From a virus: a stretch of DNA of 43,775 nucleotides. Shown here piece by piece: positions 8,292 to 31,000 of this stretch. Positions within the stretch are counted from its first letter, which is position 1; each line of letters begins with the position of its first letter. The DNA is taken from positions 1-43,775 of the IMG/VR virus record IMGVR_UViG_3300034018_001252, one strand, 5' to 3'. The position numbers were made by a program, and so were the translations under genes. The notes beneath the pieces are model-generated. The model made no database searches and was not told the DNA's origin. It saw only the letters and a list, made by a program, of their open reading frames with translations.

Positions 8292-9449
8292 ATGAATGAC
8301 ACCAAACATTGGAAACTAATGGATGATCGTGCGGTTAATCAGCAAGATCGTGAGAAATTGTGCGCGTTCATTATGAGCAATGAAAAACTCTCGTATGGAG
8401 AAAAATGCAAAGAGTTAGAACGGCTTTGGTCTGAATGGCTTGGTGTTAAGTATAGCGTGTTTGTTAATTCGGGATCCTCCGCCAATCTTATTCTTGTACA
8501 GGCTATGCATGATCTATACGGTCGTGGTGACTGGATTGCACAGTCCTGTACATGGGCAACCAACATTGCACCTATACTGCAACTGAAGAGTAGCAGCCAA
8601 GGTATTTACATGACCGATGTTGACATGAAGACTCTTGGACCAGATCTTGATAATGTAGAGCATTACATCAAGAAGCATAATGTACGATACATTTTTGTGA
8701 CTCATGTTCTGGGTATCCCTTCTATAAGTCAAAAATTGATTGACCTTTGTGACAAGCATAATATAATTTTGTTGGAAGATTGCTGCGAATCTCACGGAAG
8801 CACATGGAATGGTAAAAAGGTTGGTACATTTGGAAAAGCATCTACTTTTTCTTTCTTCTATGGACACCATATTACTTCCATCGAAGGGGGCATGGTATGC
8901 ACTGACGATGAAGAACTGTATCATCATCTTCTGCTGTTGCGTTCTCATGGAATGCTACGAGAGTTGCCAGAACAAGAACGGAGCAAGAGAAAGGTGGACG
9001 GAGTTGATGAACGGTTTACATTCCTGTGCAGTGGCTACAATGTACGAAACACTGATTTGAATGCTGTTCTTGGTATATCTCAAATGGCTCGTCTTGATAA
9101 ATCAGTTTGTGTTCGTGAACGAAATTTCAGAATATATCTTGACGGATTGGACTCATCCAAGTATCATTCGGACATGGTATGTGTAGGTACTAGTCTTTTT
9201 GCCTTTCCTATAATTAGATTAGATGGAAATATCCATAAGGTTTCGCAAGCACTGAAAGAAAACGGAATTGACAACCGACCACTCATTGCAGGAAATCTAT
9301 TTCGTCATCCAATGATGCACGGGGTGAATACATATGTGATTGAAGGAAAAGCAGATTTTATTCACGACAATAGCCTATATGTTGGAAACAGTGAGTTTGT
9401 GGAAATTGATGATGTGCAAAGACTAGTGGGAATTTTGAATGCAATATAA
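8292..9449 (+). CDS. PLP-dependent NDP-4-keto-6-deoxysugar 3-dehydratase-like enzyme (ColD/RfbH type)
   Basis: A 385-residue DegT/DnrJ/EryC1/StrS-fold protein. PLP-pocket features are NSGSSANL (59-66), the Asp of LLEDCCESHGS (D163) and TFSFFYGHHITSIEGGMV (185-202). In ordinary aminotransferases the position after FxFxxx is the Schiff-base lysine; here it is H192, giving HHI-x-x-x-EGG. This His substitution is the hallmark of ColD (GDP-4-keto-6-deoxymannose 3-dehydratase) and RfbH/E1 (CDP sugar 3-dehydrase), which remove the C3 hydroxyl. No Fe-S cysteine cluster was recognised, which favours ColD-like glutamate-dependent chemistry. It sits directly before the split transketolase and in the same island as an Fcl-like enzyme. 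Function is inferred from this residue and the family. Confidence 0.83.
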   Translation: MNDTKHWKLMDDRAVNQQDREKLCAFIMSNEKLSYGEKCKELERLWSEWLGVKYSVFVNSGSSANLILVQAMHDLYGRGDWIAQSCTWATNIAPILQLKSSSQGIYMTDVDMKTLGPDLDNVEHYIKKHNVRYIFVTHVLGIPSISQKLIDLCDKHNIILLEDCCESHGSTWNGKKVGTFGKASTFSFFYGHHITSIEGGMVCTDDEELYHHLLLLRSHGMLRELPEQERSKRKVDGVDERFTFLCSGYNVRNTDLNAVLGISQMARLDKSVCVRERNFRIYLDGLDSSKYHSDMVCVGTSLFAFPIIRLDGNIHKVSQALKENGIDNRPLIAGNLFRHPMMHGVNTYVIEGKADFIHDNSLYVGNSEFVEIDDVQRLVGILNAI

Positions 9450-10191
9450 TGATGATAGAAAAAAGATAGTTGCAAAAATTGTGAATCTTGCCTATTCTAG
9501 CAAAGAAGGGCATATTCCTAGTTCTCTATCAGTGCTTGATATAATATACGGAGTGTATCGAGAGTATATTACCAAAAACATAGACCACAAGTTTGTTCTC
9601 TCCAAAGGTCATGCTTCTCTTGGATTGTATGTTGTATTAGATCACTTTGGATTGCTGAATACAGATTTGAACTCCTTTTGCAAATTTGATTCTTTGCTTG
9701 GTGGTCATCCTACCTCGAAAATCCCGTCGATTGAAGCATCTACTGGTTCTCTTGGGCATGGTATGCCTATTGCTGTTGGTATGGCTATGGCAAAGAAGAT
9801 CCGCGGAACAGTTGGAACCGTGTTTGTATTGATTGGTGATGGTGAGGCAAACGAAGGAACTGTGTGGGAATCCGCTCTTTTAGCAAGTCATCATGGACTA
9901 GACAACCTTGTCTGTCTGTTGGATCACAACCATTCAACTGATAGGGCTGTGGGAATTGGTAATACTACTTCTAAATTTTCAGCATTTGGTTGGCAAACTC
10001 ATGAAATAGACGGGCACAACATTGATGCCATCACATCAATTCCAATGACTACAGGCAAGCCAACTTTTGTGCTGTGTAATACCGTTAAAGGAAAGGGAAT
10101 TGCCATAATGGAAAATAATCCTGAATGGCATCATAAGTCTCCTACCACAGAACAACTACAATCCATAATTGCAGAATTGGAAGCCCTTTGA
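9439..10191 (+). CDS. Transketolase N-terminal (TPP-binding) subunit
   Basis: First half of a split transketolase, 250 residues. Conserved parts are GHIPSSLSVLDI, LSKGHASLGLY (55-64), LGGHP (87-91), EASTGSLGHGMPIAVGMA (99-116) and the TPP/Mg site IGDGEANEGTVWE (132-144) through N164. The next gene supplies the C-terminal half, as in archaeal and many glycan-cluster transketolases. The ATG overlaps the 3-dehydratase gene by 11 bases, so the two are probably co-translated. A role in central carbon metabolism cannot be excluded, but the context suggests transfer of a two-carbon unit to a deoxyketo sugar. Confidence 0.92.
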   Translation: MQYNDDRKKIVAKIVNLAYSSKEGHIPSSLSVLDIIYGVYREYITKNIDHKFVLSKGHASLGLYVVLDHFGLLNTDLNSFCKFDSLLGGHPTSKIPSIEASTGSLGHGMPIAVGMAMAKKIRGTVGTVFVLIGDGEANEGTVWESALLASHHGLDNLVCLLDHNHSTDRAVGIGNTTSKFSAFGWQTHEIDGHNIDAITSIPMTTGKPTFVLCNTVKGKGIAIMENNPEWHHKSPTTEQLQSIIAELEAL

Positions 10192-10192
10192 A

Positions 10193-11071
10193 ATGAGAAA
10201 GCAATTTGTAAAAACTTTGCAGGATATTCTCTATTCTGATAGTCGAACGGTGTTGTTGCTCGGTGACATCGGTGTTTTTGGTTTTCGGGAGGAGATTAAG
10301 AATATTCCTTCTCGTGCACACAATATTGGTATTCTTGAACAGAGTACCATAGGAGTTGCAGCAGGTATGGCAAAGGAGGGATTGATTCCATTCGTACACA
10401 CCATTGCTCCATTTATTGTCGAAAGAGCGTTTGAGCAACTCAAGGTAGATTTTGGATATCAAGAACTGAATGGAAACTTCATTAGTGTTGGTGGATCATA
10501 TGACTATGCAGCATTGGGATGCACACATCATTGTCCCGCTGATGTTTCACTTATGACATCCATTCCAAATATGGAAATATTGATTCCTGGTACAGCATCT
10601 GAGTTGGATACTCTTGTAAAACAAACCTACAATAGTGGGAATCCAACCTACACTCGCATGAGTGAAACTCAGCATGACGAACAGATTGATGTCAAGTTTG
10701 GATACGGAAATATCATCAAGCATGGAAAATCTGGCACTATTTTGTGTTTTGGAACTATGCTAAAGCAAGTGATGGAAGCCACACGCAATATGGATGTGAC
10801 GGTTCTGTACTATAGCACAGTTTTACCTTTTGATGGCAAGATTCTGCTTGACAACTTCCACGAAACCATTATCATATGCGAACCCTTCTATGAAGGAACA
10901 GTTAATCACTTGGTTGATCTTGCTTTGGCTGGAAGGCGATATAGGAAGTTTAACATAGGTGTTCCCCGCAGATTTCTGACAAATTACGGAACAAAAACGG
11001 AACACGATTTTGATATTCGTGTTGATGCTGATTCTGTTAGAGAAAGGATTCAATCATGCATTCAGTCTTGA
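10193..11071 (+). CDS. Transketolase C-terminal subunit
   Basis: Second half of the split transketolase, 292 residues, with the pyrimidine-binding domain and the C-terminal domain. The catalytic glutamate that activates the TPP pyrimidine is expected at E49 in IGILEQSTIGVAAGMA; later GCTHHCPADVSLM and SIPNMEILIPGTASE match the family. It starts at ATG 10193, two bases after the stop of the N-terminal subunit; a TTG at 10169 is the alternative. Both halves look intact, so an active heterodimeric complex is likely. The 3' end overlaps the SDR gene by 16 bases. Confidence 0.92.
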   Translation: MRKQFVKTLQDILYSDSRTVLLLGDIGVFGFREEIKNIPSRAHNIGILEQSTIGVAAGMAKEGLIPFVHTIAPFIVERAFEQLKVDFGYQELNGNFISVGGSYDYAALGCTHHCPADVSLMTSIPNMEILIPGTASELDTLVKQTYNSGNPTYTRMSETQHDEQIDVKFGYGNIIKHGKSGTILCFGTMLKQVMEATRNMDVTVLYYSTVLPFDGKILLDNFHETIIICEPFYEGTVNHLVDLALAGRRYRKFNIGVPRRFLTNYGTKTEHDFDIRVDADSVRERIQSCIQS

Positions 11072-12066
11072 GTAATGACGCTGACATTGTTTTGAGCCGC
11101 ACCGATCTTTCCAAGATGCGCGATAAGCGAGTTCTTGTCACGGGAGCATCGGGACTTGTTGGTATCAACCTTGTATCCTGCATCAAGAAGATGAAAGATG
11201 AATATAACATAGAATTGTGGTGTTGGTTTCGTGAACAAATAGATCCGTGTTTTTCTGATGTGTTCACAGATTGCAACATCATTCGGGGAGACATCACAGA
11301 CACACAGATGTTCTCCAATCTACCGCAGTTTGATTTTATTATTCATTCTTCTGGATACGCACAGCCGTCCAAGTTTTTGGAAGACAAAATCAAAACCATT
11401 CAACTCAACACAATATCCACCATTTTTCTGTTAGAAAAGTTGAACAAGGATGGAACCTTTTTGTTTGTCAGCACTAGCGAAATTTACAGCGGCTTGGACC
11501 ACCACAACATACAAGAGAATCAGGTTGGAACTACCAACACAGATCATCCACGGTCTTGTTATATTGAAGGAAAGAGGACAGGAGAGGCTATTTGCCATGC
11601 GTATGTTCAGAAGGGATACAACATCAAGATTGCTCGTTTGAGTTCTGCATACGGTGCTGGTGCAAAAAAGAACGACAAGCGAGTTCTGAATATCCTCATA
11701 GACAGAGGGCTAACTGAACAGTCCATCAAACTGATGGATGACGGTTCCGCGATACGGACATTCTGTTATATCAGTGATGTCACCGAAATGCTGTTTACCA
11801 TTATGCTATTCGGTAAGGATGTGACATACAATATCGGAGGAATTTCTGAACTTTCCATATACGAATTGGCTTGCAAGATAGGAACTATTCTAGAAAAGGA
11901 AGTCACAGTTCCGCAAAATAGTAACTCTATGGCAGGTAATCCAAAAATTGTAAATGTCAGTATTCAGAGATACATGGACGAGTTTGGAAAATCATCAAAA
12001 AACTTTGTTGATTTTGATGAAGGATTGAATCGAACAATAGAATGGCAAACACAATTTGTTGGTTAA
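11056..12066 (+). CDS. NAD-dependent sugar epimerase/dehydratase (extended SDR)
   Basis: A 336-residue extended short-chain dehydrogenase. The nucleotide-binding loop is GASGLVG (30-36), the active-site Ser/Thr region VSTSEIY (137-143), and the catalytic pair is in CYIEGKRTGE (Y168, K172), reminiscent of the YDEGKR signature of UDP-glucuronate decarboxylases and related dTDP/UDP-sugar SDRs. RTFCYISDV near residue 235 is the usual sugar-binding strand. It could reduce or epimerise the product of the 3-dehydratase/transketolase pair just upstream. AAAGGA precedes the ATG inside the transketolase gene. Confidence 0.85.
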   Translation: MHSVLSNDADIVLSRTDLSKMRDKRVLVTGASGLVGINLVSCIKKMKDEYNIELWCWFREQIDPCFSDVFTDCNIIRGDITDTQMFSNLPQFDFIIHSSGYAQPSKFLEDKIKTIQLNTISTIFLLEKLNKDGTFLFVSTSEIYSGLDHHNIQENQVGTTNTDHPRSCYIEGKRTGEAICHAYVQKGYNIKIARLSSAYGAGAKKNDKRVLNILIDRGLTEQSIKLMDDGSAIRTFCYISDVTEMLFTIMLFGKDVTYNIGGISELSIYELACKIGTILEKEVTVPQNSNSMAGNPKIVNVSIQRYMDEFGKSSKNFVDFDEGLNRTIEWQTQFVG

Positions 12067-12091
12067 ACCGACATACTAAAAGGAATTTGAT

Positions 12092-12682
12092 ATGGCTAAA
12101 TTAATAGAAATGCGTGGATCGTCTAATATGGTTACGGGATTGCAGAAACTATGTCTTGGCACAAAAAATTTGCTAGGCAAAAGAGAAGACCTGAACATAG
12201 TAGAAATTGGATGTTACTGTGGTCATTCGACACTTATTATTAATAGTTGTTTCATAAATGCTACGATAAATTGCGTTGATCCTTGGGCGATGTATCGGGA
12301 AGAAGGATCGACATATGATTTGGATAATCAGGCAGAGGAATTGAGAGAAGCCGAAGAGATATTTGACGCAAATATCAAATTACATAAAAACATCAAGAAG
12401 AACAAGATGGCAAGTGTGGAGTTTGCTGTTTCTGTTGAAAACGAATCACTTGATCTGGCTTACATTGATGGTGATCATTCATACTCCGCTGTAAAACAAG
12501 ACATCCTCACATGGATGCCAAAGGTTAAAGTTGGTGGGGTGATTGCTGGACATGATGTTAGTTGTGATGCTGTTCGTAAAGCGTTGAGTGAAATTTTTTC
12601 TTGCGATCCCGATGGAACATTCGAGGATGACAGTTGGGCTTATATCAAGACTCAACAAATGAAAGATTCTTTTGGAGAATAA
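12092..12682 (+). CDS. Class I SAM-dependent methyltransferase (Methyltransf_24-like)
   Basis: A 196-residue methyltransferase with VEIGCYCGHSTLII (SAM motif I), INCVDPWAMY (acidic residue after strand 2), LAYIDGDHSYSAVKQDI (motif IV with the metal-site-like DGDHSY) and GGVIAGHDVS. This DGDHSY pattern is typical of sugar and natural-product O-methyltransferases of the Methyltransf_24 group. AAAGGA lies upstream of the ATG. It is the third methyltransferase of the island and probably methylates a glycan hydroxyl. Confidence 0.85.
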   Translation: MAKLIEMRGSSNMVTGLQKLCLGTKNLLGKREDLNIVEIGCYCGHSTLIINSCFINATINCVDPWAMYREEGSTYDLDNQAEELREAEEIFDANIKLHKNIKKNKMASVEFAVSVENESLDLAYIDGDHSYSAVKQDILTWMPKVKVGGVIAGHDVSCDAVRKALSEIFSCDPDGTFEDDSWAYIKTQQMKDSFGE

Positions 12683-12683
12683 T

Positions 12684-13589
12684 ATGCTACTATCAATACT
12701 GATTGGTGGAAAAAATGACAATTATGCAGCAGATGATAATGGAAAAGGTGGAGTCAACAAGCGACTCGAACTCACATTAAACAAAATGGTAGATAATTTA
12801 AAGCGTTTAGGAAAATCCGATGTTGAAGTTGTCGTTTGTGACTGGGGAAGTGAAATAAAGATTTCAGATGAATTGGTCAAGGAGAGACATCCAAACTTGA
12901 AGTTCGTATATGTGTCCCCTGATATCACCAAGAAGTATAATCGTGGAACATCATATTCCATCGTGCATCCTTACAATGTGTCATATCGTAATAGCAAGGG
13001 TGAGTATGTTGTTTTCTGGGACTCTGACTGCTTTATGCCTTACGAGGAGATAGAGCGTCTATACAATTTTGTAAAGGCATTATCGGATAATAAGGAAAAG
13101 AAGTTCTATCAGGGATCTCGTTTTCATATTCCCCGAATAGGATATGTTGATGCTGAATCATATAAAGATGTGGATGAGTTTTTGAAGACTTGCGTTATTG
13201 ATCCTGTTAACGCTAAACAACCTACTGTAGATGCAGACAATTTTGTTGACGAGCATATGCTTCGTCATAATAAAATCAGTGTTGACTATTTTAGTGGTGG
13301 TGCTATGGCAGTATTGATGCATAGAGAAATAGCAGAGGAAAGTAGTTGCTGGTGGGAAGAACTTACTTATTGGGGATGGCAAGATATTGAACTCCATACT
13401 CGCCTCAAGAGAAGATATCCGTGTGGAGGAGATCTAGAAGATTTTGGCATCAAGTTTTTTCATCTATATCACTACGAAAATTTCAATAAGAATAAGCCTG
13501 TTATGAATGACTCTTTGATCACTAATAGATTTCATGCAAATGAAAAAAACTGGGGACTTGCTGACGAAAAATTAGAGGTGATTTCGTGA
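12684..13589 (+). CDS. GT-A glycosyltransferase with C-terminal galactosyltransferase-like motif
   Basis: A 301-residue transferase. The N-terminus LLSILIGGKND, the region VEVVVCDWGSE, GEYVVFWDSDCFMPYEEIERL (DSD at the metal site) and WWEELTYWGWQDIELHTRL (the WGWxDxEL motif of chondroitin-polymerase and galactosyltransferase C-domains) define the fold. ATG 12684 has GGAG at 12674-12677; the TTG at 12672 is rejected. It overlaps the Fcl-like gene by GTGA. The local DNA is AT-rich (18 G/C in bases 12661-12720). Confidence 0.82.
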   Translation: MLLSILIGGKNDNYAADDNGKGGVNKRLELTLNKMVDNLKRLGKSDVEVVVCDWGSEIKISDELVKERHPNLKFVYVSPDITKKYNRGTSYSIVHPYNVSYRNSKGEYVVFWDSDCFMPYEEIERLYNFVKALSDNKEKKFYQGSRFHIPRIGYVDAESYKDVDEFLKTCVIDPVNAKQPTVDADNFVDEHMLRHNKISVDYFSGGAMAVLMHREIAEESSCWWEELTYWGWQDIELHTRLKRRYPCGGDLEDFGIKFFHLYHYENFNKNKPVMNDSLITNRFHANEKNWGLADEKLEVIS

Positions 13590-14494
13590 ATACTTTAATA
13601 CTAGGCGGTCATGGTATGTTGGGTTCATCTATTGATTTTGGATTGAAGCCAACAAAGAAAGAAGTGAATCTGTTGGATTATAGTTCCTTAGATCGGTATA
13701 TTCGCGAGCATGATGTTGATGAGATTGTTCATGCTGCTGGTATTGTTGGTGGGGTGAAAGCCAATAATGATTTTATGTATGACTTTTTCATTAACAATCT
13801 CTATATGAATGCAAATATCATCCGAGCCTGTAAGGATCATAATATAAAGAGATCCACTTTTTTCCTATCCACTTGCGTGTTTCCTCAATCTGCTCCTCTG
13901 CCTCTAGTAGAAAGCAGCATACACGATGGAGAACCACATCCAACTAATTTTGGATACGCATACTCAAAGAGAATGTTAGAAGTCGGATCTAGAAGTCTTA
14001 TGAGACAGTATGGAATACGCACATCATGTATTGTTCCGTGTAATATGTACGGAAAAAACGACAACTACCATTTGGAAAATGGTCATGTTATTCCGAGTCT
14101 CATACACCGCTGCTATCTTGCAAAGCAAAACGGAACTGAGTTCTTGGTATGGGGTTCTGGAAAAGCAGAACGAGAATTTGTATATGCAGATGATATGGCT
14201 TCTATCGTTAAGAGTATTCACACCGAACAAATGAATGATCTTCCTCCGTTGATGATAGTATCTCCTGGATATGTACATACCATCGCTGAAGTTGTTGAGG
14301 TGATTGTGAAGCATATGAAATTCACTGGAAGAGTTGTTTTTGATGCCACAAAATCGGAAGGCATAATGCGAAAGAATACGGACAATTCTTTGTTCCGAAG
14401 TCGATTCTCCGACTTTAAGTTTACCGATCTAGATACAGGACTGGCAAAGACTATTGAATATTTTGTAAAAAACTATGAAGCAGTACGAAAGTAA
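13586..14494 (+). CDS. fcl: GDP-L-fucose synthase / ColC-like epimerase-reductase
   Basis: A 302-residue extended SDR close to Fcl: NAD(P) loop GGHGMLG (7-13), AAGIVGGVKANN (50-61, cf. VGGIxAN of Fcl), active-site strand FFLSTCVFPQ (S95, C97), catalytic Y124 and K128 in YAYSKRM, and CNMYGKNDNYHLENGHVIPSLI (in parts: MYGKNDNYH, HVIPSLI). Fcl converts GDP-4-keto-6-deoxymannose to GDP-L-fucose by 3,5-epimerisation and 4-reduction; ColC does the equivalent 5-epimerisation/4-reduction in colitose synthesis. Its substrate could come from the GMD encoded at 26663. The GTG overlaps the preceding TGA. Fucose and colitose cannot be told apart by sequence alone. Confidence 0.9.
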   Translation: MNTLILGGHGMLGSSIDFGLKPTKKEVNLLDYSSLDRYIREHDVDEIVHAAGIVGGVKANNDFMYDFFINNLYMNANIIRACKDHNIKRSTFFLSTCVFPQSAPLPLVESSIHDGEPHPTNFGYAYSKRMLEVGSRSLMRQYGIRTSCIVPCNMYGKNDNYHLENGHVIPSLIHRCYLAKQNGTEFLVWGSGKAEREFVYADDMASIVKSIHTEQMNDLPPLMIVSPGYVHTIAEVVEVIVKHMKFTGRVVFDATKSEGIMRKNTDNSLFRSRFSDFKFTDLDTGLAKTIEYFVKNYEAVRK

Positions 14495-14591: not shown

Positions 14592-15800
14592 ATGTCTACA
14601 GTATGCCTCTCAATGATCGTTAAGAATGAAACGCACATTATCCATGAATGCCTCAATTCAATGTGGCAAAACATTGACTATTGGGTGATCGTGGACACAG
14701 GATCCACAGACGGAACCCAAGACCTTATACGCACCTTCTTTGCAGAGAAGGGAATTCCTGGCGAACTCATTGAGAAGCCTTGGGTAGACTTTGGCTACAA
14801 CCGTAGCGAAGCCCTTGCTCTATGTGATGGCAAGGCAGACTACGCTTGGATGATTGATGCCGATGACAAGATCACAGGAAATTTTGCGTATCCCAACGGC
14901 AAGAATCTCATACACGATGCGTATGCTCTCAAATGCGGACGAGACGGGTGTGTGTGGTGGCGCAATCAAATCTTTAAGACAGGTATTGGTTGGAAGTACA
15001 TTGGCGTTCTCCACGAGTACGCCCATTGCGAAAAACAGCCACTAAATCAATTCCGTATTGAAGGTGACTACGCTCTTGAGGCGCGTACACTTGGTGCGCG
15101 TAATGTAAATATTACACAGGTAGAGAAGTACACAAAGGATGCAGAGATGCTGGTCAAGGCTCTAGAAACAGAGCCAACGAACTCTCGCTACCAGTTCTAC
15201 CTTGCTCAGTCGTATTTTGACTCACAGCAGTGGGACAACGCCATTGCAGCGTACTACAAGCGTGTGGAGATGGGTGGATGGGAAGAAGAGTGCTACTACT
15301 CCCTGTTCCGTATTGCCCTGTGTGAAATCTCAAAGAATTCTGATTGGTCAATTGTTCAGCAGAAATTCCTTGACTCGTATGACTACCGTCCGTGCCGTGC
15401 AGAACCGCTTCACGCTATTGCACGATTCCTTCGCATGAACGGTCGTCCACGCGCTGCGTACCTGTTTGCCAAGGAAGCCGCACAACTCCCGTACCCACAG
15501 CAGGACATTCTGTTTATTGATACGAATGTGTATAAGTGGATGGCGTTGGATGAACTAGCGGCTACAGCATTCTTTACCCACGATTTCAAGATTGGCTACT
15601 CCGCTTGCGAAACCCTGCTAAAGCAGAGCCGTTTGCCAGAGAGTGAAATTGAACGAGTTCAGAAGAACCACGCTGCGTACCTTGAGAAAGTCAAGGAAGT
15701 GGATGCGATGACACAGAAACTCGCCAAAGACACCAATATGCCCCCACTTGCTCCCGTGCTAAATACAAAGCAGCACACCTTTAAAAAGCGGAGAAAGTAA
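14592..15800 (+). CDS. Family 2 glycosyltransferase with C-terminal TPR-like helices
   Basis: A 402-residue protein. The N-terminal third is a GT2 domain of the SunS/TPR type: VCLSMIVKNETHIIHECL (strand 1), WVIVDTGSTDGTQDLI, DFGYNRSEALAL and YAWMIDADDKI with the DADD metal site. The remainder is helical with TPR-like units (RYQFYLAQSYFDSQQWDNAI, AIAAYYKRVEMGG, AYLFAKEAAQLP). Such proteins often glycosylate proteins or lipids in phage and bacterial clusters. A strong AAGGAG precedes the ATG. G/C content is much higher than in the preceding genes (36 G/C in bases 15421-15480), suggesting a different origin from the AT-rich island. The stop overlaps the next start (TAATG). Confidence 0.85.
   Translation: MSTVCLSMIVKNETHIIHECLNSMWQNIDYWVIVDTGSTDGTQDLIRTFFAEKGIPGELIEKPWVDFGYNRSEALALCDGKADYAWMIDADDKITGNFAYPNGKNLIHDAYALKCGRDGCVWWRNQIFKTGIGWKYIGVLHEYAHCEKQPLNQFRIEGDYALEARTLGARNVNITQVEKYTKDAEMLVKALETEPTNSRYQFYLAQSYFDSQQWDNAIAAYYKRVEMGGWEEECYYSLFRIALCEISKNSDWSIVQQKFLDSYDYRPCRAEPLHAIARFLRMNGRPRAAYLFAKEAAQLPYPQQDILFIDTNVYKWMALDELAATAFFTHDFKIGYSACETLLKQSRLPESEIERVQKNHAAYLEKVKEVDAMTQKLAKDTNMPPLAPVLNTKQHTFKKRRK
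15758..15765 (+). promoter_or_regulatory. Late-promoter-like octamer GCTAAATA
   Basis: GCTAAATAC lies inside the end of the preceding gene, 34 bases before the ATG at 15800 of a probable structural gene. It has the same CTAAATAC core as the copies at 3632 and 29326. Confidence 0.45.
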
Positions 15801-26662: not shown

Positions 26663-27658
26663 ATGAAGACAGCAATTATTACAGGCGTAAACGGACAAGA
26701 CGGCTCGTACCTTGCGGATCTATTGATCTCCAAGGGATACTTTGTGATTGGATTGAAGCGGCGTACTTCGCTCATTAACACAGAACGGGTTGACCACATC
26801 TATAATGATGCAATTTCAAACTCACAGTTCACGATGTGTTACTATGATCTAACTGATGGTGGGGCATTCACCAATCTTCTTATGAAATATAAGCCTGATG
26901 AGGTGTACAATCTTGCAGCACAGTCCCATGTGGCAGTTTCGTTTGATGTTCCTGAGTACACTAGTGACGGCATTGCAGGTGGAACGCTGAAGATACTTGA
27001 AGCCATTCGTTCGGTGTCTCCTCACACTCGCTTCTATCAGGCTTCGTCTTCGGAAATGTACGGAGACTCCAAAGATTACGGAACCACAGGCTACACCGAA
27101 AACAGCCGTATGAGTCCTGTATCGCCGTATGCAGTAGCCAAACTCCACGCACACCATATGACCCGTGTGTATCGTGAAGCCTACGGACTCCACGCAAGTT
27201 CAGGCATTCTGTTCAACCACGAAAGCCCACGGCGTGGCGAAACATTCGTGACCCGCAAGATTACCATTGCAGCCGCTCGTATTGCACAAGGCAAGCAACA
27301 GAAACTGCTGCTTGGCAATATTGATGCCAAGCGCGATTGGGGATTCGCAGGAGACTATGTGGATGCCATGTGGCGAATGCTGCAACAGCCGCAGGGCGAT
27401 GACTATGTGGTGGCTACCAACCGCACCTATTCTGTGCGTGAATTTTTAGAAGTAGTATTTCAGTACGCAGGACTTGGTGACTACACCAAATATGTGGAAA
27501 CTGATCCGCGTCTGTTTCGCCCCAACGAGGTTCCGTATCTGCTTGGTAATCCTGAAAAAGCCAAACAGGTGTTGCAATGGGAGCCGCAGCATGATATGAT
27601 CGCGCTTGCACAGATGATGTACGATTCCGACCACAAGCGAGAACAGCATAAACAGTAA
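26663..27658 (+). CDS. gmd: GDP-mannose 4,6-dehydratase
   Basis: Converts GDP-D-mannose to GDP-4-keto-6-deoxymannose, the precursor of GDP-fucose, colitose, rhamnose and perosamine. The 331-residue SDR has ITGVNGQDGSYLADLL (6-21), LKRRTS, NLAAQSHVAVSF (83-94), SSSEMYG (128-134), SPYAVAK (154-160; Y156, K160), FNHESPRRGETFVTRKIT and RDWGFAGDYV, all hallmark GMD motifs. ATG 26663 is used; earlier in-frame positions lie inside gp41. The stop overlaps gp61 (TAATG). It lies 12 kb from the glycan island yet supplies the obvious substrate for the Fcl-like and ColD-like enzymes there. Confidence 0.96.
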   Translation: MKTAIITGVNGQDGSYLADLLISKGYFVIGLKRRTSLINTERVDHIYNDAISNSQFTMCYYDLTDGGAFTNLLMKYKPDEVYNLAAQSHVAVSFDVPEYTSDGIAGGTLKILEAIRSVSPHTRFYQASSSEMYGDSKDYGTTGYTENSRMSPVSPYAVAKLHAHHMTRVYREAYGLHASSGILFNHESPRRGETFVTRKITIAAARIAQGKQQKLLLGNIDAKRDWGFAGDYVDAMWRMLQQPQGDDYVVATNRTYSVREFLEVVFQYAGLGDYTKYVETDPRLFRPNEVPYLLGNPEKAKQVLQWEPQHDMIALAQMMYDSDHKREQHKQ

Positions 27659-28650: not shown

Positions 28651-29330
28651 AAGAAGTAAAGGTTCTTGATAACGGATTCGTGCAGTATGTTTCTCATATG
28701 GGAAATGATTTAACTGTTGCAAATGCAGCGCGTGTATCGTTTCACAAGATTAGCGAAGAGTTCACCGACAAAGACGGTAAACTTATTAACTATCTTGCCA
28801 AGCACAAGCATTGGACTCCTTTCGCGCATCCACAGATCACACTGCGAATCAAGGCTCCCATCTTTGTTCGCACCCAACTATTTAAACATAAAGTTGGAAT
28901 GACGGAGAATGAAGTAAGCCGCCGCTATGTTTCCGATCCACCCGTGGTGTACCTTCCTCGTTGGCGTGGCAAGCCTACAGGTGGAGCAAAGCAAGGCTCC
29001 GAAGACTTTATGCCTATAGATGACGATTACAACACTGTGAATCGACACTACGAAATGGCGGTGCGGGAATGCCTACTAACCTATGAGCAACTACTGAAGC
29101 GTGGTGTGGCTCCTGAACAGGCTCGTGCTGTACTGCCACAAGGAACCTATACCGAATGGTGGTGGACAGGATCGCTTTCGGCATTCGCAAGAGTGTACTC
29201 ACAACGCAGTGATTCTCATGCACAATGGGAATGCCAAGAGTACGCCTCCGCAATAGCAGCAGTAATCTCTCCACTATTCCCCCATTCTTGGGGTGCTTTA
29301 ACCGCCAAGCCACCCATCTGCCTCGCCTAA
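28647..29330 (+). CDS. thyX: Flavin-dependent thymidylate synthase ThyX
   Basis: Methylates dUMP to dTMP with FAD and folate. The 227-residue protein has ANAARVSFHK, LAKHKHWTPFAHPQITLRIKAP (in parts: HKHWTPFAHPQ, LRIKAP), FVRTQLFKHKVG and MTENEVSRRYV, the phage version of the ThyX RHR-x7-S motif region (80-93), and RAVLPQGTYTEWWWTGSL near the C-terminus. ATG 28647 follows GGAGG (28637-28641) by five bases and overlaps the gp61 TGA; ATG 28635 is less likely. Together with dUTPase it forms a dUTP-to-dTMP route. Its TAA lies within a late-promoter-like octamer. Confidence 0.96.
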   Translation: MKEVKVLDNGFVQYVSHMGNDLTVANAARVSFHKISEEFTDKDGKLINYLAKHKHWTPFAHPQITLRIKAPIFVRTQLFKHKVGMTENEVSRRYVSDPPVVYLPRWRGKPTGGAKQGSEDFMPIDDDYNTVNRHYEMAVRECLLTYEQLLKRGVAPEQARAVLPQGTYTEWWWTGSLSAFARVYSQRSDSHAQWECQEYASAIAAVISPLFPHSWGALTAKPPICLA

Positions 29331-29333
29331 ATA
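29326..29333 (+). promoter_or_regulatory. Late-promoter-like octamer CCTAAATA
   Basis: CCTAAATAC overlaps the thyX stop codon and ends five bases before the ATG of the collagen-like fibre gene, at the boundary between replication and structural genes. In T4 the start site lies about six bases past the octamer, so the transcript would begin near the ATG. Confidence 0.5.
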
Positions 29334-29338
29334 CGGGG

Positions 29339-31000
29339 ATGACCGATTTACCTAGTTCAAACTCACCCACAGAGCCGCGCCGAACTGCTGCCATTTCCAG
29401 TGGTAAGTATTCATCGGGTTCTGTATTTCGTTTAGTACGGGAGATCCGTGGTTCCGCGTACTCTGTGGGTGACGAGTTTATTCTTTCAGAAGAGCAGGAC
29501 TGCTTTAATCCTAGCATTCTTAGGCTTGGTGGCGTTGGCGAAAACTATTTTGCTGACCCAAGTGGTCGCCCTCTTAAAATTGAAGCGGGAGACAAGCAGA
29601 TTGATTCTATCTTTCAGTTGGTAGAACCCACTGCTGTACCATTACTAGAAGAAATCAAAGTAGTTTCGCCTCCTGTCCGAAATGTTTCAGAGACAGAGTT
29701 TTCTGCATTCCGTTCAGGTTTGGCTGATCTACTCACTGAGATTTCTGCTGTTACTTCCGCACAAGGTGAACGGGGCGAACGGGGCACTCGTGGATACACA
29801 GGTGTTCAGGGAGCAAAGGGCGATAAGGGTGAACAGGGAAATCAGGGAGAACAAGGACAAGCAGGAATCACTGGTGAACGGGGACAGCAAGGTGAGCAGG
29901 GAGTTGCTGGCGTTCAGGGTGATAAGGGAGACAAAGGCGATACGGGTAGTAGTGGTGCTGATGGAGTGCAAGGAGTTCAAGGCAACAAGGGTGATAAGGG
30001 TGATCGCGGAGATCAGGGGCTGCAAGGAGTTCAGGGCAAGAAGGGCGACACGGGAGTTGCAGGTAAAAAGGGAGACAAGGGCGACAAGGGAGATCGCGGT
30101 GAGCAAGGACTTCGCGGTGTTAGTGGTGCGCGAGGCGAAGCAGGAGTAGCAGGAGTAGCAGGTAAACGCGGTGCTGATGGTGCTGACGGCAAGGCAGGAG
30201 TCAAGGGAGTCCGAGGAGCCAAGGGAGATAAAGGCAGCACTGGCGATTCAGGTATTGTTTCCGCCAAGTTTCCACTTGTTTATGACGCAGCCGAAAAAAC
30301 CATCTCAATTGATGAAGCACGGCTAGACAAAATTCTCAAGAAGATTCTTGGCGGCGGCAAGGTGTCTCCACAAGACATGGGTTGGCTTGCGTCCACGGGT
30401 GGTGGCGGCAAGGTGGCTGTATACATTAACGGCTCCAAGATTACTCCTGATGTTCGCACACTAGACTTTACAGGCGCAGGAGTCTCGGCTACAAAGGTGG
30501 GCGGGAAGGTTACCGTTAACATTACAGGTACAGGTGGTGGAACCGCCGCAGCAGGAACAAACTTCTACTATCAAGAAAATCCACCTGCTGCAATTGATGG
30601 AGTTACCATTGGTTCTCGGTGGATGGACTCCGACAACGGACAAGAGTACATCTATATTAATGACGGAAACACCCAACAGTGGGTACAGCCAGCAATTCCG
30701 AATGTAATATCAAGTGTTGTTCACACCGTTGTGACTATTAGTGCCGCAACTTATGAAGCAAGCAACCTAGACTATTATATTGGGGTTAGTTCTGGAGTAC
30801 CATCAACTATTACTCTTCCTGAAGGACCAGCATACGGGCGAGAGGTAATAATTAAAGATGAATCAGGGCGGTCAAACACATACCCCATCACGGTGATTGG
30901 TGCAGATTCGGCTCTCATAGATAATCAGGCGGGTGTTACTATTGATACCAACAATAGAGCAATTCATTTTATATACAATAGTGGATGGAGAATAATATAA
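29339..31000 (+). CDS. Collagen-like tail fibre protein
   Basis: A 553-residue probable fibre. Residues 1-142 form an N-terminal domain (RLVREIRGSAYSVGDEFIL, GGVGENYFADPSGRPLKIEAGD) likely to attach to the virion. Residues about 143-305 are some 54 consecutive G-X-Y triplets rich in GDKGDKG, GEQG and GVQG, expected to form a bacterial-type collagen triple helix. The C-terminal part has a short coiled-coil-like stretch (EARLDKILKKILGG), Gly-rich linkers and a beta-domain ending IHFIYNSGWRII, probably the tip. ATG 29339 lacks a ribosome binding site; translation may follow from thyX termination eight bases upstream. Confidence 0.88.
   Translation: MTDLPSSNSPTEPRRTAAISSGKYSSGSVFRLVREIRGSAYSVGDEFILSEEQDCFNPSILRLGGVGENYFADPSGRPLKIEAGDKQIDSIFQLVEPTAVPLLEEIKVVSPPVRNVSETEFSAFRSGLADLLTEISAVTSAQGERGERGTRGYTGVQGAKGDKGEQGNQGEQGQAGITGERGQQGEQGVAGVQGDKGDKGDTGSSGADGVQGVQGNKGDKGDRGDQGLQGVQGKKGDTGVAGKKGDKGDKGDRGEQGLRGVSGARGEAGVAGVAGKRGADGADGKAGVKGVRGAKGDKGSTGDSGIVSAKFPLVYDAAEKTISIDEARLDKILKKILGGGKVSPQDMGWLASTGGGGKVAVYINGSKITPDVRTLDFTGAGVSATKVGGKVTVNITGTGGGTAAAGTNFYYQENPPAAIDGVTIGSRWMDSDNGQEYIYINDGNTQQWVQPAIPNVISSVVHTVVTISAATYEASNLDYYIGVSSGVPSTITLPEGPAYGREVIIKDESGRSNTYPITVIGADSALIDNQAGVTIDTNNRAIHFIYNSGWRII

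Follow-up and report, generated by a model that had tools for sequence, protein, structure and literature searches.

A split transketolase and an SDR gene beside a ColD-type 3-dehydratase in a T4-like phage record, with a possible GDP-linked branched-sugar pathway

In the virus record IMGVR_UViG_3300034018_001252, whose 43,775 bases were analyzed as a whole and are called the window here, a set of sugar genes lies at 8292-14494, with a GDP-mannose 4,6-dehydratase (GMD) gene further on. An earlier note had read these genes as carrying all three steps to a GDP-3,6-dideoxyhexose such as L-colitose, namely, GMD, a ColD-like 3-dehydratase, and an Fcl-like enzyme in the role of ColC. The same stretch also holds a split transketolase, whose two genes we call TktN and TktC, and a gene for a short-chain dehydrogenase/reductase (SDR), none of which appear in that note. 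The gene order ColD-TktN-TktC-SDR is tight, as the end of the ColD-like gene (9449) overlaps TktN and the end of TktC (11071) overlaps the start of the SDR gene (11056). The features are listed in Table 1. The region may well encode a GDP-linked branched-sugar pathway rather than simply one to colitose.

Table 1. Sugar-related genes of the window, in order of position
Feature	Position	Strand	Length (aa)	Evidence and remarks
ColD-like nucleotide-sugar 3-dehydratase, dependent on pyridoxal 5'-phosphate (PLP) or pyridoxamine 5'-phosphate (PMP)	8292..9449	+	385	His192; PF01041, ColD alignment, model
TktN, putative thiamine diphosphate (ThDP)-binding half of split transketolase	9439..10191	+	250	Transketolase_N, 109 bits
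TktC, putative pyrimidine-binding half of split transketolase	10169..11071 (listed ORF)	+		Transket_pyr, 71 bits
SDR enzyme, proposed to reduce the branch ketone with NAD(P)H	11056..12066	+	336	Epimerase/SDR Pfam
Methyltransf_24-type methyltransferase	12092..12682	+		PF13578; same ORF cluster in 12/42 cassette loci
GT2-type glycosyltransferase	12672..13589	+		PF00535; same ORF cluster in 14/42 cassette loci
Fcl/GDP-fucose-synthase-like epimerase-reductase	13586..14494	+	302	GTG start; GDP-L-fucose synthases best in PDB
GT2-type glycosyltransferase beside cassette	14592..15800	+		PF00535
GMD, GDP-mannose 4,6-dehydratase	26663..27658	+	331	TIGR01472, 424.5 bits (cut-off 415); GMD chains best in PDB

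The open reading frame (ORF) at 8292-9449 belongs to the DegT/DnrJ/EryC1/StrS family (Pfam PF01041, 196 bits). The earlier note had seen in this PLP-fold enzyme a His where aminotransferases have the Schiff-base Lys, and the alignment bears this out. Residue 192, the first His of FFYGHHI, falls on His188 of ColD, in a column that has Lys in chain 2r0t and Asn in 3b8x, an entry titled H188N. H192 and H193 are invariant in 49 rows of phage and cellular (bacterial) ColD homologues, an alignment made without L050 (in-frame stops), and also in 14 distinct full-length ColD ORFs of transketolase cassettes. The sequence matched ColD with 204 bits versus 125 bits for RfbH. The nearest chains to its AlphaFold model (pLDDT, 93.6) are four ColD entries (Z, 48.9-50.0; rmsd, 1.9-2.2 over 372-376 residues), with RfbH/E1 (Z, 46.7-46.8) and aminotransferases (Z, ≤44.8) further down the ranking, so that the enzyme is nearer to ColD than to RfbH or aminotransferases by sequence and fold. 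The cysteine loop of RfbH serves a [2Fe-2S] cluster. An RfbH/E1 identity was rejected because the Cys-rich loop of 3bcx is replaced by a Cys-free stretch in the window enzyme and because model NF011936 gave only 188.6 bits against a cut-off of 423; H192 in place of the Schiff-base Lys likewise led us to reject an aminotransferase. Judged by its sequence, the ORF is confirmed as a ColD-type 3-dehydratase, neither RfbH-type nor Lys-type. L050 itself (10001-11128, uncultured bacterium) has a ColD match with 17 stops under translation table 11, perhaps reflecting an alternative genetic code.

The GMD reported in the earlier note scores above the cut-off of its family (Table 1). With a phage GMD and a ColD-type 3-dehydratase both present, a GDP-3,6-dideoxy intermediate is therefore the likely product of the two predicted enzymes, and the GMD in the same record gives circumstantial support for a GDP-sugar as the substrate of the ColD-like enzyme. 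The GMD gene stands well away from the other sugar genes, between those for the replicative helicase and the primase.

The ThDP-binding and catalytic residues of the two transketolase halves are conserved, including the catalytic Glu57 (numbering of the listed TktC ORF) and an ILEQ motif. A YerE-like single-chain ThDP enzyme of the decarboxylase superfamily was rejected, as Pfam gives Transketolase_N and Transket_pyr in two ORFs. The likelier start of TktC is the ATG at 10193, just past the TktN stop, because most of the other phage TktC ORFs compared start at the matching MRKQF-like stretch. The closest solved structure to TktN is 6yak, the N component of a split-chain transketolase (160 bits), and no PHROG family was found for TktN or TktC. 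A TktN search of 50,697 deposited phage records, which may omit records very near the window, gave 37 with a match, all below 60% identity; the best identity was 39.5% among matches covering more than 80% of the query, and none of the 37 records is named for Synechococcus. In the residues that follow GDxG, the 12 phage TktC rows compared have Phe or Tyr at a place with Ser in five of nine cellular rows and Gly, Pro, or Lys in the others, a sequence difference to which we give little weight. In Cyanobacteriota genome G336 (L163, 7364-11169), TktN and TktC directly follow a gene for a 688-aa protein weakly similar to TktN, perhaps a fused dehydrogenase E1; SDR-like genes are present there too, and its TktC has motifs in common with phage TktC.

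Scans of IMG/VR gave 39 loci with TktN and 7 with TktC, or 42 after each contig was counted once; the cassette of one of these, L059, is protein-identical to that of the window. ORF clustering found TktN in 41, TktC in 40, and the SDR family in 39 of the 42 loci (in L094 far from the block). The order TktN-TktC-SDR was seen in 37 loci by ORF clusters and in 40 by tblastn, the tblastn exceptions being L094 and L095, whose stretch stops just after TktN. The TktN proteins fall into 31 clusters at 95% identity. TktN-TktC-SDR is a conserved viral cassette, and an RmlC-type epimerase accompanies it in 8 of the 42 loci. Given this setting, we find it very improbable that the transketolase serves the host pentose phosphate pathway as an ordinary auxiliary metabolic gene: its halves keep the ThDP residues that such an enzyme would have, but it is ordered with an SDR of nucleotide-sugar type in the 40 loci seen by tblastn and often stands among glycosyltransferase, GMD, Fcl, or ColD genes.

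In the SDR, S141, E142, R166, Y169, K173, R209, and R234 are invariant over 29 rows, and its model (pLDDT, 92.0) has a helix (residues 2-15) ahead of the first strand. The nearest folds are two entries of the CDP-6-D-glucitol synthase HS5.17, 8v4h (Z, 36.6) and 8v4g (Z, 36.2), followed by human UDP-xylose synthase (UXS; Z, 35.5). On chemical reasoning, a hydroxyacetyl branch is a hydroxymethyl ketone, the type of group that HS5.17 reduces. HS5.17 of Campylobacter jejuni is reported to use NADPH for converting CDP-6-fructose to CDP-6-glucitol, and an unusual helix precedes its Rossmann fold (PMC10918830). Its Arg164, Tyr167, Lys171, Arg208, and Arg233 align with R166, Y169, K173, R209, and R234 of the cassette SDR. 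The two enzymes share this fold and the leading helix but only 25% identity; the substrate of HS5.17 is an open-chain CDP-ketose, and it outscores UXS in Z by about 1 at most. The same paper describes a Ser-Glu pair in GDP-4-keto-6-deoxymannose reductase and Asp-Glu or Asp-Lys in 4,6-dehydratases (PMC10918830). Ser141-Glu142 of the SDR resembles the reductase pair, and Ser-Glu is found in UXS too.

The SDR could instead be a UXS/ArnA-like decarboxylase yielding UDP-xylose or UDP-4-ketopentose, with the transketolase branching that pentose or being unrelated to ColD. We consider this quite unlikely. The Ser-Glu, Tyr, Lys, and Arg of UXS-like motifs are invariant in the SDR, the Arg among them corresponding to the substrate Arg R277 of UXS, and UXS chains come top by sequence and by profile (171 bits versus 166 bits for HS5.17). 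That slightly higher profile score and the tied or nearly tied fold Z values of HS5.17 and UXS speak against a clear assignment as a reductase. The Arg, Tyr, and Lys positions, however, are also those of the reductase HS5.17, the nearest fold by a small margin, and R209 was dropped as proof of a decarboxylase since HS5.17 has Arg208 there. Moreover, the cassettes are often near GMD, Fcl, or ColD genes or, in the bacterial genome G159 described below, near RfbF-RfbG-RfbH, and no UDP-glucose dehydrogenase was noticed in passing, with no search aimed at one. From sequence and model, the SDR is not clearly a reductase, yet that assignment is better-fitting than a decarboxylase.

Of the 42 cassette loci, 20 have a ColD ORF, and in 18 of these it is an immediate neighbor of the block. 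ORF order shows this for 17; in the other, L061, TktN is masked by a long ORF, but tblastn places the genes next to each other. There are two layouts, with ColD before TktN in 8 loci and after the SDR gene in 10; the latter stand for five clusters because L064-L066 and L073-L076 are near-copies (TktN more than 95% alike). When the 42 whole records were searched for ColD, 22 had a match, one being a Lys-type DegT (G036) and one a terminal fragment (G041, C-terminal part only); the frames are broken in G024 (L082). The DegT matches in transketolase records L053 and L094/L125 are Lys-type and hence were rejected as ColD. On a ColD tree of 52 rows, transketolase beside ColD needs nine changes (18 rows with transketolase and 27 without; L012, L018, L032, and L045, which have little flank, and three RfbH rows were unlabelled), so the ColD-transketolase pairing has been gained or lost repeatedly. 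A further ORF cluster, c5, encodes an approximately 305-aa protein (L104, 9891-10808, and 19 other loci) and mostly follows the SDR gene where ColD is missing. Its likeness to methyltransferases rests on thin evidence: of two members scanned, one matched a Pfam family, with 23.6 bits where the cut-off is 27. Only 2 of the 42 loci have both c5 and a ColD ORF, and this rarity suggests that the two are alternative ways of tailoring a shared 4-keto-6-deoxy precursor.

The Fcl-like epimerase-reductase that the earlier note placed at 13586 was recovered, with S95, C97, Y124, K128, and H167 intact at the catalytic Ser, Cys, Tyr, Lys, and His positions of GDP-fucose synthase. It scores 206 bits with NCBIfam NF047922, far under the cut-off of 500, which the Fcl proteins of Synechococcus phages S-CAM7 (422 bits) and ACG-2014f (420 bits) also miss. 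On a tree of 37 rows, built without reference ColC and with one L101 gene present twice under two labels, the window Fcl lies within an 11-row clade (support, 100/100) of transketolase-cassette Fcl genes. Three members of this clade (L062, L072, and L104) come from loci without a ColD ORF, and no ColD match was found in their whole (partial) records. L101 has an Fcl gene like that of the window and another, distant one next to its ColD. Given these loci and the second Fcl in L101, the window Fcl is a candidate ColC at most, and the ColC step claimed before is not supported as stated.

A plain route to an L-colitose-like 3,6-dideoxyhexose, through GMD, ColD, and the Fcl-like enzyme as ColC and with the transketolase and SDR serving another sugar, keeps a modest chance of being right. 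All three enzyme types are present with their catalytic residues intact. GMD, Fcl, and ColD are contiguous in S-CAM7 (L057, 10085-13143) and ACG-2014f (L056, 10050-13167), and a TktN search of these two whole records, made without a positive control in the same search, gave no match. Moreover, among 26 viral loci recovered with the window ColD, a TktN/TktC match lies in the stretch covered for three (L001-L003) and is missing for 23, in several of which Fcl stands directly before ColD. In the window, however, the overlap partner of ColD is TktN and not Fcl, and the cassette-bound clade of the window Fcl and the separate Fcl beside ColD in L101 both tell against this route. Of the three-step route proposed earlier, the GMD and the ColD-type 3-dehydratase stand; colitose is not singled out, because the window ColD overlaps TktN, followed by TktC and SDR, a block that recurs in other viral contigs.

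Bacterial genomes carry related sets, among them a CDP twin of the phage cassette in five Cyanobacteriota genomes. Among 29 cellular loci found with ColD, four (L027, L029, L031, and L033) have a His-type ColD and TktN/TktC nearby, on the other strand in L031. L027, L031, and L033 also have genes that resemble, in their first residues, all that was compared, those for GHMP sugar kinases and nucleotidyltransferases; these clusters may be a GDP-heptose version. In the Cyanobacteriota genomes G248, G105, G068, and G096, RfbF, RfbG, RfbH, TktN, TktC, and SDR lie in a row on one strand, with one extra gene each in G068 (between RfbF and RfbG) and G096 (between TktC and SDR). RfbH of these four rows is over its curated cut-off, and the names of RfbF and RfbG rest on 43-48% identity to the G159 proteins; in G159 itself, RfbF, RfbG, and RfbH are each over their own cut-offs. 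The order in G159 is RfbF-RfbG-RfbH, one gene, SDR, an FkbM methyltransferase, TktN, and TktC, and its SDR belongs to the phage type, with 29% identity and 32 of the 41 invariant columns conserved. We examined co-location in 292 Cyanobacteriota genomes, of which 132 had TktN (E ≤1e-45), 63 had RfbH (E ≤1e-100), and 35 had both; the TktN search also covered 398 Proteobacteria genomes, with the co-location test made in Cyanobacteriota only. RfbH and TktN lie within 5 kb in 5 of the 35 genomes, versus 0.19 expected from random placement (Poisson P of ~2e-6). What the sets of phages and bacteria have in common is a predicted nucleotide-4-keto-3,6-dideoxyhexose, beside a split transketolase and an SDR.

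We propose the following pathway, whose first two steps follow from strong homology. GMD would convert GDP-mannose to GDP-4-keto-6-deoxymannose, and the ColD-like enzyme, using PMP and His192, would remove the 3-hydroxyl to give GDP-4-keto-3,6-dideoxymannose. TktN/TktC would then take a two-carbon ketol unit from a ketose and pass it, bound to ThDP, to the ketone at C4, so forming a tertiary alcohol that carries a 4-C-hydroxyacetyl branch, and the SDR would reduce the branch ketone to yield a GDP-3,6-dideoxy-4-C-(1,2-dihydroxyethyl)hexose. For the branching and reduction steps, we draw on gene order, the bacterial CDP twin, fold neighbors, and precedent. The glycosyltransferases and methyltransferases of the cassette could place the branched sugar onto a host or virion glycan, and the Fcl-like enzyme would most likely act on the same GMD product to make GDP-L-fucose or an intermediate in its L-form. 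More broadly, we put forward, tentatively, that a group of phages and some bacteria (those with the CDP twin) make 4-C-(1,2-dihydroxyethyl)-branched 6-deoxy or 3,6-dideoxy sugars through a split transketolase accepting the C4 ketone of a nucleotide sugar.

Besides the many viral ColD loci without a transketolase match, several observations weigh against this proposal. No ColD ORF is present in 22 of the 42 cassette loci, so the transketolase is not strictly in need of a 3-deoxy substrate; 18 of these 22 have c5, and one of the 18, L103, has a ColD fragment at the contig end. An intact GMD ORF was found in only 15 of the 42 loci, and in the window GMD lies 12 kb past the cassette. L094/G036 has TktN with no SDR by the block and a Lys-type DegT elsewhere in the record. 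The viral records are fragments. As to the bacterial sets, the SDR of the four rows is of a different kind from the phage SDR, and the co-location test was made after the G159 case had been seen and within one phylum. The four genomes are also relatives (RfbH 82-93% identical to one another and 53-55% to G159), so the co-location stands for about two independent cases.

The window has T4-type replication genes, namely, a DNA polymerase (phrog_262, 1027 bits), a clamp loader, UvsX, a DnaB-like helicase, and a primase. In the helicase search, which matched 3,100 deposited phage records, the top-ranked include Methylophilales phage Melnitz, Synechococcus phage S-CREM1, and Pelagibacter phage HTVC008M (56-58% identity). 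The window is taken for a T4-like phage, a virus of bacteria. At 29225-31000 it encodes a Gly-x-y collagen-like protein with matches to tail-fibre families.

If the proposal is true, ketone-accepting transketolases exist outside Streptomyces, and a branched-sugar pathway is encoded by viruses; some phages would produce branched sugars possibly absent from their hosts, with consequences for the view of glycan remodelling by phages. Annotation of a phage gene as "transketolase" does not by itself make it an auxiliary gene of the pentose phosphate pathway. Among the papers listed in searches of the openly licensed literature, none reports this cassette or a phage or RfbH-linked branching transketolase, and no paper on apulose with a transketolase was found.

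The window set is like the colitose pathway (GMD, ColD, and ColC) in its GMD and its His-type, ColD-fold 3-dehydratase without the RfbH cysteine loop, with an Fcl-like gene nearby. It differs in that it is phage-encoded, in that ColD adjoins a split transketolase and an SDR, and in that its Fcl groups with transketolase cassettes. S-CAM7 and ACG-2014f, also phages, have ColD proteins 37-40% identical to that of the window, GMD over the curated cut-off (540 and 555 bits, respectively), and Fcl far nearer to the GDP-fucose synthase model than the window Fcl; glycosyltransferase genes follow GMD-Fcl-ColD in both, with a tail-fibre gene further on. By their gene content, they are the cleaner candidate for a phage colitose-type route. 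A claim that the window holds the first such three-gene set in a phage was rejected on their account. The earlier note knew of no characterized phage colitose route, and we found no characterizing paper in the openly licensed literature, but the gene set itself was already in these cyanophages.

Yersiniose A is made with RfbF, RfbG, RfbH, YerE, and a reductase, RfbF-RfbG-RfbH leading to CDP-4-keto-3,6-dideoxyglucose. To this intermediate YerE adds acetaldehyde, according to a 2025 review (PMC12247030). The proposed phage pathway would share this logic, with an NDP-4-keto-3,6-dideoxyhexose followed by a ThDP enzyme and then an SDR, and would differ in its GDP rather than CDP carrier and its split transketolase in place of the decarboxylase-family YerE, so that a hydroxyacetyl rather than an acetyl branch is expected. 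The same review describes transketolases as proposed, uncharacterized enzymes for the branching of keto sugars; its 13 candidates are all encoded by split genes and all come from Streptomycetes. For miharamycin and amipurimycin, it describes a split transketolase as proposed to add hydroxyacetyl to a keto sugar (PMC12247030). A probable acceptor substrate for such transketolases is indicated by the phage cassettes and by the RfbF-RfbG-RfbH-TktN-TktC-SDR rows. The idea of a split-gene transketolase is the same in both settings; in miharamycin and amipurimycin it concerns antibiotic sugars of Streptomyces, whereas here it concerns the window of a T4-like phage and 42 other viral loci, many of which include a 3-dehydratase.

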